The translations under genes and the position numbers were made by a program. Below are positions 39,418 to 42,223 of a DNA stretch of 42,223 bases, in pieces; positions within the stretch are counted from its first letter, which is position 1; each line of letters starts with the position of its first letter. The DNA is taken from NCBI GenBank assembly GCA_019459525.1, contig JAIBEY010000028.1, positions 1 through 42,223 on the forward strand, given 5' to 3'. The DNA comes from Prolixibacteraceae bacterium. Lineage in GTDB: Bacteria > Bacteroidota > Bacteroidia > Bacteroidales > Prolixibacteraceae. The notes under the pieces were generated by a model. That model ran no database searches, was not told the DNA's origin, and worked only from the letters and a program-made list of their open reading frames with translations.

Positions 39418-39924
39418 ATGGTAAACCTGGCAAAGAACATACGATTGATTATCATTCAGATTATTGATTATTTCCATACTCCTTTCCGGAAAATTATACC
39501 CAGGGAAACATTCAGATATGGTGCTACCGGGGGTTTTAATACCTTGCTCGATATTTTCCTTTACTTTATTTGTTACAATTACATTCTCGATAAAAAGATT
39601 ATTGATATTCAGATTGTTTCTGTAAGTCCGCACATTGCCGCATTTTTAATTGTATTCCCGATTACTTTTTTCACAGGATTCATTCTGGCCAAATACATCA
39701 CCTTCACCAATTCCGAAATCAGAGGACGTGTTCAGTTAATTCGCTATATGATCTCGGTTTCCGGTTCAATTTTCCTGAACTATATTTTCCTGAAAGTTTT
39801 GGTCGAATTTGGCGGCTTATGGCCAACTCTGGCAAAAATCATTACAACAGTTATTGTTGTTATTTACAGCTATTTTGCTCAAAAATTCTTCACATTTAAG
39901 ACCTCGGGACTGGCAACTTCCTAA
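39418..39924 (+). CDS. GtrA-like membrane protein
   Basis: This 168-aa protein has four hydrophobic membrane segments and matches the GtrA family, small membrane proteins thought to help move lipid-linked sugars across the membrane for surface glycosylation. Typical motifs are FRYGATGGFNTLLDIFLYF (first segment), FFTGFILAKYITF (motif before the cytosolic loop), and YSYFAQKFFTFK at the end. It stands alone: the preceding gene is the polymerase and the next element is a riboswitch. No glycosyltransferase gene accompanies it. The start at 39418 gives the expected N terminus, although no promoter box is clear. Confidence 0.9.
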   Translation: MVNLAKNIRLIIIQIIDYFHTPFRKIIPRETFRYGATGGFNTLLDIFLYFICYNYILDKKIIDIQIVSVSPHIAAFLIVFPITFFTGFILAKYITFTNSEIRGRVQLIRYMISVSGSIFLNYIFLKVLVEFGGLWPTLAKIITTVIVVIYSYFAQKFFTFKTSGLATS

Positions 39925-39963
39925 ACCCGTTATTTATCTTTTCAGTATATTTTAACCTTGCAG

Positions 39964-39996
39964 TTTGCCACTGAAACTTTTTTTGACTTATCTTCG
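39964..39996 (+). promoter_or_regulatory. Promoter ahead of the cobalamin riboswitch
   Basis: TTTG (39964-39967), a 21-base spacer and TATCTTCG (39989-39996, one mismatch to TAnnTTTG) place the transcript start near 40002, exactly where the riboswitch aptamer begins. Confidence 0.6.
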
Positions 39997-40000
39997 CTGG

Positions 40001-40166
40001 CGAATTGGTGATGCTCGGTTGAGTATCAAGAGGGAATCCGGTTAAAATCCGGAGCTGTACCCGCAGCTGTAAACTCTGAATATTTTTTGCACTACTTGCC
40101 ACTGTCAAGCCTTAAGCAAGATGGGAAGGCCGCAAAAATGGAGTGAGCCAGAAGACCTGCCATTCG
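40001..40166 (+). promoter_or_regulatory. Cobalamin (adenosylcobalamin-class) riboswitch
   Basis: The conserved core is present: AGAGGGAATCCGGTT (40030-40044) followed by AATCCGGAGCTGTACCCGC (the L4/P4-P6 core), CTGTAA, and the B12 box AGCCAGAAGACCTGCC (40146-40161). CGAAT (40001-40005) and ATTCG (40162-40166) can close the P1 stem. Downstream an AAGCTTT/AAAGCTT hairpin (about 40181-40201) may be part of the expression platform; no T tract follows, so control is probably at translation. The downstream gene would be off when B12 is plentiful. Confidence 0.93.
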
Positions 40167-40288
40167 AGCTACAATATTCAAAGCTTTCGGGAGAAAAAGC
40201 TTGGAGTAACCAAAAACATTAAGCAACCGGTTATTTCAGCAGTTTTGCGTATTGTAATCATTTTGAAACCATTCAAAATTATTACATA

Positions 40289-41911
40289 ATGAAACAAATC
40301 TACATGACGGCATTTCTTGCCACTTTTTTAGCATTTAACACCATGGCACAAACTGTTGCCAAGTTTGACGACCTGCCCCTGGAGCCGGGAAAGTTCTGGA
40401 ATGGCTCCGATCTGTCGGGCAGTTTTAAAAGCTCCGGAATCACATTCTACAACTTGTACAACCAGGACTGGGCTAGCTGGAGTGGGTTTGCCTATTCGAA
40501 CACGACCGATGTTACAACCGCCGGATACCAAAACCAGTATAGCGCCATTACCGGAAAAGGGCATGAAGGTAGCGCCAATTATGCCGTTTGTTACCCAACT
40601 CCTTCAGCAGAAATTGGATTTAACACATCAACAAAAGTCACCGGTTTTTATGTAACAAACTCCACCTATGCTTACCTCTCGATGAGAAACGGCGATCAAT
40701 TTTCAAAGAGATTTGGCGGCGAAAGTGGCAACGACCCCGATTATTTCAAACTAATGATAGAAGCCCTGGATACTGAAGGAAAGCCTGTTGATACGCTTTA
40801 TTTTTACCTGGCCGATTTCCGGTCTGATGACAACTCGAAAGATTACATTTTAAATCAATGGACCTGGGTTGACCTTAGTGAACTTAAAGAGGCCCGTAAG
40901 CTCCGGTTTAGCCTTAGTTCGAGCGACAACAGCTATGGCTACATGAATACGCCCGGATATTTCTGCATGGACGACCTAAACGGCGAAAAACCATTCGAAT
41001 ACAAACCGGTAACATCAGCAGGTTTCGAAAATCTGGATCTCGGATCTCAAGGTTATTACAATGGTGGCGATAACAAAGGTGGTTTTGTGAGTGGCAACTT
41101 CAGGTTCCTTACCGATTATACGCAATCAGAATATGGAGATTACTGGTCGGGATTTGCGGCTTCTGAGAAAACCGACATCACTACCCCCGGCTATAACAAT
41201 CAATACAGTGCCATCACCGGAAAAGGTGTTGCCGGAACTCCGGGTTATGCCGTTGTTTATCCTGCACCCGTTTCCACTGTCCTGTTTAAAGACACCATCG
41301 TTACCGGATTTTATGTAACAAACAGTACTTACGCTTATCATTCAATGAAGAACGGTGATGCTTTCTCGAAAAAATTTGGTGGTGAAACCGGAAATGATCC
41401 GGATTGGCTAATGCTGACCATAGAAGGGTTCAATTCGGAGGATCAATCAGCCGGAAAAATAGAATTCTACCTGGCCGATTTTGCATACAGCATCAATTCA
41501 TACGATTATATACTGGATACCTGGAAATGGGTAGATCTTTCGAAACTTGGAAGAATCTCAAAACTCGAATTTTCATTACGCTCAACCGATAACAGTGCAT
41601 GGGGAATGAACACACCGGGTTACTTCTGCATCGACAACCTCAATCATCAGGTTTTGACCTCTTCCCCGGAACTCAAACAACTTCAGGCTTCCGTTTTTCC
41701 TAATCCGTTTAGCGACCAAATTGTTGTTTCCGGATTAAAGAATCAGGCTAATGTTACCATTTCTGACGTTGGCGGAAGAAACATCAGAATATATACCAAC
41801 ATCTCAAACAACCAGATGATTGGCGGGTTGGACCAGTTAAAACCGGGCATCTATCTCGTTAAAGTAATTGAAGGGAAAAACCTGACAACGACTAAGCTGT
41901 TGAAGAAATAA
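40289..41911 (+). CDS. Tandem DUF4465 protein with T9SS sorting domain, probable B12-binding exported protein
   Basis: This 540-aa protein has a signal peptide (residues 1-20, cut after AFNTMA) and two similar DUF4465 domains at about 26-230 and 244-452. They share SGFA, NQYSAITGKG, VTGFYVTNSTYAY, FSKxFGGExGNDPD and TPGYFC. A type A T9SS sorting domain (about 462-540, VFPNPFSD to TTTKLLKK) ends it. DUF4465 proteins lie in B12-regulated loci of Bacteroidota, and some have been described as surface B12 binders (BtuH, from memory). The riboswitch directly upstream supports a corrinoid-capture role. Unlike the lipoprotein binders, this one would be exported by the type IX system. Binding itself is inferred. 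No btuB gene is in the window. Confidence 0.9.
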   Translation: MKQIYMTAFLATFLAFNTMAQTVAKFDDLPLEPGKFWNGSDLSGSFKSSGITFYNLYNQDWASWSGFAYSNTTDVTTAGYQNQYSAITGKGHEGSANYAVCYPTPSAEIGFNTSTKVTGFYVTNSTYAYLSMRNGDQFSKRFGGESGNDPDYFKLMIEALDTEGKPVDTLYFYLADFRSDDNSKDYILNQWTWVDLSELKEARKLRFSLSSSDNSYGYMNTPGYFCMDDLNGEKPFEYKPVTSAGFENLDLGSQGYYNGGDNKGGFVSGNFRFLTDYTQSEYGDYWSGFAASEKTDITTPGYNNQYSAITGKGVAGTPGYAVVYPAPVSTVLFKDTIVTGFYVTNSTYAYHSMKNGDAFSKKFGGETGNDPDWLMLTIEGFNSEDQSAGKIEFYLADFAYSINSYDYILDTWKWVDLSKLGRISKLEFSLRSTDNSAWGMNTPGYFCIDNLNHQVLTSSPELKQLQASVFPNPFSDQIVVSGLKNQANVTISDVGGRNIRIYTNISNNQMIGGLDQLKPGIYLVKVIEGKNLTTTKLLKK

Positions 41912-41919
41912 GCGATTTC

Positions 41920-41949
41920 GGTTTAAACCCGGGAGAAAAGCTTTAAACC
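41920..41949 (+). other. Inverted repeat after the DUF4465 gene
   Basis: GGTTTAAA (41920-41927) and TTTAAACC (41942-41949) are perfect inverted arms around 14 bases. No T run follows, so a terminator call is not justified. The rest of the gap up to 42072 holds only the promoter-like site below. Confidence 0.35.
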
Positions 41950-42003
41950 AAAGTTCGTTTCTGATGTTATCCTTAACAAGCAGAAATGAAAGGCTGGATA
42001 CTT

Positions 42004-42033
42004 TTTGTATTATCAGTGAATTTTATTTCTTTG
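42004..42033 (+). promoter_or_regulatory. Candidate promoter of the FKBP gene
   Basis: TTTG (42004-42007), an 18-base spacer and TTTCTTTG (42026-42033, one mismatch to TAnnTTTG) precede the ATG at 42073 by about 40 bases. Confidence 0.4.
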
Positions 42034-42072
42034 TACAATTATTTAAAATTTAAAATATTAAAAGAAAAAGCT

Positions 42073-42223
42073 ATGAAAATTGGAAAAAACAAAATGGTTT
42101 CCCTAACATACGATCTACATTACGATGATGCTGATGGAGAGTTGATTGAACAGGCAACCAGCGAGAAACCATTGAGTTTCGTGTTTGGTGCCGGATTAAT
42201 GCTCCCTAAATTTGAATCACACC
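42073..42223 (+). CDS. FKBP/SlyD-type peptidyl-prolyl isomerase (3' truncated)
   Basis: The frame from ATG 42073 is open to the right edge; about 50 residues are visible. MKIGKNKMVSLTYDLHYDD followed by DGELIEQATSEKPLSFVFGAG and LMLPKFESH is the SlyD-like FKBP pattern: the strand-turn-strand start, the GELIE segment, the PLSFVFGAG turn and the LPKFE helix. These are cytosolic prolyl isomerases and chaperones. The insert-in-flap domain and the C-terminal tail are outside the window, so whether the metal-binding tail of SlyD is present cannot be told. A promoter-like site lies upstream. Confidence 0.85.
   Translation, partial: MKIGKNKMVSLTYDLHYDDADGELIEQATSEKPLSFVFGAGLMLPKFESH

Follow-up and report, generated by a model that had tools for sequence, protein, structure and literature searches.

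At the right end of the window, the name used here for the whole 42,223-nt stretch of DNA that was analysed, a cobalamin riboswitch precedes a gene whose product carries a pair of DUF4465 domains followed by a sorting tail of the type IX secretion system (T9SS), and no btuB gene lies beside it. Is this a self-contained way of scavenging corrinoids, as the original prediction proposed, or a part of a B12 uptake system whose other genes lie elsewhere? The evidence favours the latter. Very likely, the gene encodes a B12-riboswitched, T9SS-exported corrinoid catcher with two pockets, which feeds a BtuG-BtuB-type importer encoded elsewhere, and the protein is probably an accessory surface binder of an ordinary BtuB-BtuG regulon.

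The locus and its leader

The window is the complete contig C107 of a 5.54-Mb assembly and ends 312 bases 3′ of the DUF4465 gene, so that the downstream side is invisible in this genome. Its right end carries, in order, a GtrA-family gene, the riboswitch, the tandem DUF4465 gene and the start of an FKBP-like gene (Table 1). A family profile search of the genome found a single DUF4465 gene, the one described here. No window ORF of at least 70 aa matches the BtuB-, BtuG- or BtuH-like proteins of the same genome, and no TonB receptor was found among the ten window ORFs put through Pfam. One of these ten, an 875-aa open frame at positions 11–2635, has no Pfam match at all at E ≤ 0.001.

Table 1. 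Coordinates of features at the right end of the window.
Feature	Position	Strand	Basis
GtrA-family gene	39418–39924		Pfam on window ORFs
Candidate Bacteroidota-type promoter (TTTG, 21 bases, TATCTTCG)	39964–39996	+	Sequence; same-genus leaders
Cobalamin riboswitch aptamer	39989–40178	+	RF00174, 99.1 bits, full length
B12 box of aptamer	40146–40161	+	Pattern AGCCAGNAGACCTGCC, 143 bases 5′ of start codon
Expression platform / 5′ UTR	40179–40288	+	20-row alignment, consensus fold, terminator scan
Gene for 540-aa tandem DUF4465 protein	40289–41911	+	ORF; relatives in other genomes
Putative signal peptide without lipobox cysteine, residues about 1–20	40289–40348	+	By inspection
DUF4465 domain 1, residues 20–236	40346–40996	+	Profile, structure matches, residue alignment
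DUF4465 domain 2, residues 241–456	41009–41656	+	Profile, structure matches, residue alignment
T9SS type A C-terminal sorting domain, residues 469–540	41693–41908	+	PF18962, TIGR04183, fold matches
FKBP-like gene, first bases only	from 42073		Named by eye

At 99.1 bits (E = 9.8e-24; gathering score 31.5), the match to RF00174, which spans the entire covariance model (1–189), is not due to chance. The aptamer ends 110 bases before the start of the DUF4465 gene, and the distance from the B12 box to the start codon is 141–145 bases across 20 same-genus leaders, the window counted. A promoter on the 5′ side of the aptamer is plausible. Read by eye against the Bacteroidota consensus, it consists of TTTG (39964–39967) and TATCTTCG (39989–39996), spaced by 21 bases. 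A promoter scan placed TTGCCA/TATCTT at the same site, as one of 10 promoter-like sites where 4.9 were expected. By eye, the TAnnTT box is in place in all 20 same-genus leaders (window included), and the −33 element, TTG or TTTG, in about half of them.

Between the aptamer and the gene, a hairpin (AAGCTTT-loop-AAAAGCTT) is followed by a strongly conserved block that reaches the ATG, and this part of the leader is nearly invariant across the 20 same-genus rows. No intrinsic terminator was found on the plus strand of 39800–42223 in a scan for which 2.8 were expected by chance; its sole match lies on the minus strand, inside the DUF4465 gene. An intrinsic terminator was therefore discarded as the expression platform and, given also the near-invariant leader after the aptamer, control at the translation start is the better guess. 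Most pairs in the consensus fold of the 20-row alignment show no variation, and we therefore refrain from a switching model. By eye, a pair close to the ATG looks changed on both sides in two leaders (L048 and L055) and broken in a third (L069). The full aptamer and its B12 box are held in common with RF00174 riboswitches, whereas the leader after the aptamer is genus-specific, highly conserved and without a terminator in the scan.

A tandem DUF4465 protein with a sorting tail

The DUF4465 profile PF14717 matches the protein over two stretches with 369.8 bits (cut-off 25), the domains scoring 196.8 and 186.9 bits singly, and the two are 55% identical to each other. Both match the solved DUF4465 structures, BtuJ1, D5EK51 of Coraliomargarita (9hmu), 4jqr, 4e9k and BtuJ2 (9i2l), with E values against BtuJ1 (9qpm) of 6e-31 and 2e-26. 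The closest among them, BtuJ1, D5EK51 and BtuJ2, have B12 bound. The original prediction had chosen BtuH as comparator and proposed setting the predicted structure beside it. BtuH2 (7biz, so identified in the available part of PMC8941943) is absent from the 14 structure sequences that match the whole protein at E ≤ 1, searches of the solved structures with either domain singly gave no BtuH match, and 7biz is not among the best 50 fold-search matches listed; BtuH was ruled out as a relative on these grounds. The AlphaFold2 model of the 540-aa protein (mean pLDDT 85.5, pTM 0.47) has the augmented beta-jelly-roll fold of the DUF4465/BtuJ family, and its best fold matches are 9hmu (TM 0.82 by target) and BtuJ1. 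By sequence and predicted fold, the relative is BtuJ (DUF4465), not BtuH. At a pTM of 0.47 the packing of the domains is unsure, and the relative placement of their pockets is therefore left uninterpreted.

According to the available text of PMC13398666, BtuJ1, BtuJ2 and six further, diverse DUF4465 proteins all bind B12, the six having been picked for breadth and successful expression. The accessible part of PMC12751083 gives BtuJ1 Tyr146, Asn241, Thr242 and Tyr245 as the shared hydrogen-bonding residues. In both papers, as far as they are available, the tyrosine of the HI-loop NTPxY motif and a DE-loop tyrosine contact B12, and the former is retained in 97% of DUF4465 homologues (PMC13398666). 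The equivalents in domain 1 are Y127 (DE loop), N220, T221 and Y224 (HI loop N220-T221-P-G-Y224), and those in domain 2 are Y348 (DE loop), N441, T442 and Y445 (HI loop N441-T442-P-G-Y445). Across the genus, whose tandem proteins number 15, the Y146, T242 and Y245 positions are kept in 15/15 first and 15/15 second domains, and the Asn241 position in 15/15 and 13/15, respectively. By analogy with the proven relatives, each domain would be expected to bind one corrinoid.

Two other positions bear on whether the pockets are equivalent. At the position of BtuJ1 Tyr86, tyrosine is found in all 15 first domains of the genus and Ala, Val or Thr in all 15 second domains (Ala291 in the window protein); the published BtuJ descriptions, in their available parts, contain no statement found on a contact between Tyr86 and B12. 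The counterparts of Trp78, which touches the lower ligand in BtuJ1, are Trp61 (domain 1) and Tyr282 (domain 2), and a tryptophan occupies this position in 12/15 first and 13/15 second domains of the genus, with alignment gaps nearby. Since the tyrosine is not a genus rule and gaps lie close by, an explanation based on the lower ligand is weakened, which lowers the odds of a two-cobamide or relay reading. Given Tyr282 and Ala291, domain 2 may nevertheless differ in affinity or ligand.

Residues 1–22 look by inspection like a Sec signal peptide without a lipobox. The C-terminus matches PF18962 (Por_Secre_tail) at residues 469–537 (36.7 bits, cut-off 27) and TIGR04183, 'T9SS type A sorting domain' (40 bits, cut-off 23), and in the fold search the tail of the AlphaFold2 model matches the T9SS cargo tails 8qb1 and 8glk. 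The T9SS gene sprA is present in the genome (2739 bits for SprA, the T9SS component searched), together with 34 sorting-tail matches above cut-off. In Porphyromonas, cargo with type A sorting tails is mostly surface-anchored, and T9SS cargo is also sometimes released or vesicle-borne. The predicted unit of promoter, riboswitch, two DUF4465 domains and sorting tail thus holds, its promoter being plausible; from the tail and sprA we infer that the protein leaves by the T9SS, as had been predicted, and is then anchored or vesicle-borne. IPR026444 is the T9SS sorting domain. Among 824 DUF4465 sequences, 229 have IPR026444 and 275 are lipoproteins (PMC12751083, available text); DUF4465 proteins with sorting tails are already in print, and the window protein is one of that class.

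In a 46-row tree of tandem domains, a single branch separates all 23 first domains from all 23 second domains (support 92/88, below the starring limit), by which one old tandem duplication is favoured rather than proven. In a 96-domain tree, four single-domain proteins nest among the first domains (their clade 100/94) and another, L093, groups with the second-domain clade. This nesting favours the view that some congeners later lost one of the domains, and disfavours the single-domain proteins as ancestral in the genus. Tandem DUF4465 genes occur in five genera, which argues for two useful sites.

Importer genes in relatives and in the same genome

DUF4465 is present in 72 of the 140 genomes of the family. 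Counts are based on 72 genes from 75 fetched neighbourhoods, plus the window gene, after exclusion of three loci, each from a different genome (L114, L115 and L116), whose DUF4465 genes are broken or partial. The proteins fall into two groups, one with a sorting tail by Pfam in 42 of 43 members and the other in none of 30; the tail-less group consists mostly of short single-domain proteins that have an invariant lipobox-like cysteine in common. The genus of the window has 15 tandem and 5 single-domain genes, every one with its own upstream B12 box. An Rfam riboswitch was found in 17/20 and 15/16 loci scanned, among them 14/14 of the genus, and the loci lacking one are L018, L024 and L039, where the gene lies behind an importer set, and L026, where the flank stops inside a giant gene.

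Giant proteins of 2568–2594 aa occur in another genus (L109 8918–16642, L111 2747–10453 and L113 2696–10480), and combine adhesin-type domains with one DUF4465 domain and a T9SS tail, their genes being preceded by a cobalamin riboswitch; their domains (Cleaved_Adhesin, CUB, BNR_assoc_N) were itemised for L109 and L111 only. At two of these loci, L111 and L113, a BtuH-like frame that has a riboswitch of its own runs divergently from the giant protein gene.

Within the genus, no BtuB-, BtuG- or BtuH-like match lies near the gene in the 20 flanks (mostly about 9 kb, less at contig ends), and in the 13 congeners listed it is flanked by a GtrA-like gene on one side and FKBP- and AroC-like genes on the other (named from their first residues). 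Outside the genus, a BtuH-like-BtuB-BtuG set is present in the flank of 14 of 23 sorting-tail-group genes from five genera, comprising 6/8 tandem and 8/15 single genes. At 13 of these loci, in four other genera, the DUF4465 gene is 3′ of the set on the same strand, unlike L081, where it is upstream. The BtuH-like matches in these sets cover the BtuH region. In five congeners (G001, G002, G012, G014 and G020) the gene and the importer set are on one contig, convergent and about 14–15 kb apart; part of the interval between them in G001 matches contig C100 of the window's genome, and the remainder has no match among the pieces compared. Beyond the gene, the contig continues for about 27, 224 and 65 kb in G009, G011 and G019, respectively, with the importer set on a different contig.

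In the genome of the window itself, C100:822–6607 (L011) carries a riboswitch followed by genes for a BtuH-like protein, a TonB receptor and a BtuG-type DUF5074 protein. Residues 23–299 of the BtuH-like protein (804 aa) match BtuH2 (7biz, 9e-28) and BtuGH (8blw, 1e-36), and a T9SS sorting tail stands at its end. A long match to this protein, full or split, is found in 18 of the 23 genomes of the genus, and in G005, G007, G015, G016 and G017 it is matched at the tail only. The two congeners without any DUF4465 match, G007 and G015, are thus also without the long BtuH-like match, which hints that DUF4465 and BtuH-like proteins are retained or lost together. A second TonB receptor is encoded on C80, along with btuF-, cobU- and btuC-type genes (Pfam) behind two riboswitches, the remaining cob and btuD names there being assigned by eye. 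With the NCBIfam B12-receptor model the two receptors reach 80.8 and 135 bits, below its cut-off of 599.7, and a heme-receptor model gives the one on C80 a higher score (233.6, cut-off 316.85); it is by context that the two are BtuB-type. CbiC, the sole corrin-ring gene sought, was not found in the genome by a search that was positive in 7/14 control genomes, and there are four B12-binding-domain matches above cut-off, in keeping with a B12 scavenger.

The statement that no btuB is adjacent, on which the original prediction leaned, is correct for the window yet misleading. The importer set is adjacent or linked to the gene in relatives and present on C100 in the same genome, so that a missing neighbour does not mark a separate design.

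C80 also carries a cobalamin riboswitch without a clear gene behind it, followed by a conserved tail (C80:67467–67774, minus strand, corresponding to L008 7468–7775); no same-strand frame longer than 81 aa is listed behind it (L008 6500–8400). The conserved, covarying stretch of about 110 nt after this riboswitch ends, by eye, in a hairpin and a T-run, which went unlisted in a terminator scan limited to loops of up to 8. Tails of this type, with homologues among L140–L149 and L170–L185, occur in 18/140 family genomes and 10/23 of the genus, with a weak match in the distant G057. A full riboswitch accompanies the tail in 9/9 loci and, in an overlapping set, 11/13, the two exceptions being L172, probably cut by a contig end, and L186, a weak match. 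In 16 sequences, 14 of them distinct (L186 dropped, L172 left out), both partners of the pair vary at several positions of one tail helix (T-A in 7 and C-G in 7, for instance), and the helix's other pairs hold in 11–13 of 14. The riboswitch and tail may represent a B12-controlled small RNA. At 6 of 17 tail loci a same-strand frame of at least 100 aa, possibly a gene, begins within 300 bases downstream, and the tail might, against the small-RNA reading, be the leader of such a frame.

Proposed corrinoid capture and competing explanations

From the leader, the domains and the tail we infer the following course of B12 repression, export, anchoring and hand-off. Plentiful cobalamin would bind the leader RNA and turn expression off, probably at the translation start. 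When cobalamin is scarce, the tandem protein would be made and would cross the inner membrane via Sec, after which recognition of its C-terminal sorting domain would lead to export by the T9SS and probably to surface anchoring. Each jelly-roll domain would hold one corrinoid in its loop pocket, at the HI- and DE-loop tyrosines, and the corrinoid would be handed to an importer of BtuG-BtuB type that belongs to this riboswitch regulon and whose genes lie elsewhere in the genome. This hand-off would involve an operon located on a different contig, and three congeners lack linkage over such a distance; these unlinked congeners (G009, G011 and G019) and the TonB receptor scores temper confidence in the explanation as a whole.

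The protein might instead be released, free or on outer-membrane vesicles, and act like a siderophore, with the corrinoid returning by diffusion. Release or vesicle carriage of T9SS cargo would allow this, but the tail is of type A, the kind that is mostly surface-anchored in Porphyromonas. In B. thetaiotaomicron, BtuJ1 and BtuJ2 act on extracellular vesicles (PMC12751083, available text). The sequence itself does not distinguish release from anchoring, and release is considered unlikely, if still a serious contender. It is improbable that domain 1 is the sole capture site, with domain 2, its B12 binding no longer tight, a spacer or a binder of a different corrinoid. Such a division would suit the tyrosine at the Tyr86 position in every first and no second domain of the genus, the tyrosine at the Trp78 position in domain 2 of the window protein, and the four same-genus proteins that retain a domain-1 type copy only; against it, second domains keep Y146, T242 and Y245 throughout, and N241 and Trp78 in 13/15 each, and L093 retains a domain-2 type copy only.

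That the protein is regulated by B12 but binds some other ligand, such as heme or a glycan, by reuse of the jelly roll, is very hard to credit. Tandem CBM22 (glycan-binding) domains do appear in the fold search, lower among the matches listed, but the contact residues are retained in both domains, and all eight DUF4465 proteins described in the available text of PMC13398666 bind B12. A separate uptake design independent of btuB is likewise most improbable. It would account for the lack of a btuB-like gene in the window and in the 20 same-genus flanks, and for the absence of the importer set over 27 kb or more downstream of the gene in G009, G011 and G019. Set against this are the C100 operon of BtuB-BtuG type with its own riboswitch, the C80 TonB receptor with btuC/btuF/cob-type genes, and the relatives in which the gene adjoins or is linked to the BtuB-BtuG set, by which the alternative scavenging design originally proposed is disfavoured.

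A catcher serving an importer encoded elsewhere, the preferred explanation, resembles BtuJ1 and BtuJ2 of B. thetaiotaomicron (DUF4465, IPR027828; PDB 9FCT, 9QPM, 9I2L) in family, fold and HI/DE-loop residues, as well as in the riboswitch-regulated B12 loci and the accessory role to a BtuB-BtuG importer. BtuJ1 and BtuJ2 are lipoproteins with one DUF4465 domain, whereas the window protein has two domains, a signal peptide that looks non-lipid, and a T9SS sorting tail, and its gene lies apart from btuB. BtuH (BtuH2, 7BIZ; BtuGH, 8BLW) has a similar B12-binding accessory role in such loci, but the BtuH-like protein with a T9SS tail is the C100 product, and the window protein has no BtuH match in the structure-sequence searches or among the fold matches listed. 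With the DUF4465 proteins that have sorting tails (PMC12751083, available text) it shares the predicted export route, and differs from that class in being tandem.

The word 'tandem' has 0 occurrences in the DUF4465 papers PMC12751083 and PMC13398666, and in the available text of these two and of PMC8941943 and PMC9723704 (literature mostly outside subscription journals) no mention was found of tandem DUF4465 proteins, nor of any BtuH-like protein with a T9SS tail. No paper was found by wording that combines DUF4465 with type IX secretion, although PMC12751083, in its available part, gives InterPro counts otherwise worded, and none that joins C-terminal sorting domain and cobalamin-binding by those words. 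B12 binding by DUF4465 is already known, and doubling the domain varies known parts only modestly. More unusual are a tandem duplication, probably old, whose two pockets differ slightly, and a T9SS tail on the BtuH-like partner too. A broader proposal, that in this lineage the BtuH-like and BtuJ-like binders moved from a lipid anchor to the T9SS, the BtuJ-like one being two-site with pockets that diverged outside the HI/DE side, is rather doubtful; if true, one chain may catch two different cobamides, or relay to BtuG-BtuB.

The locus also cautions against taking the absence of a neighbouring btuB as a new uptake design. As a two-pocket catcher, the protein would show that the BtuJ type reaches beyond the lipoproteins of gut Bacteroides, to exported proteins with two pockets in other Bacteroidota, and BtuH-like and BtuJ-like binders with T9SS tails would be tied to a BtuB-BtuG-type importer in one regulon. 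Its tandem pockets may provide a simple test case for cobamide choice, avidity or relay.
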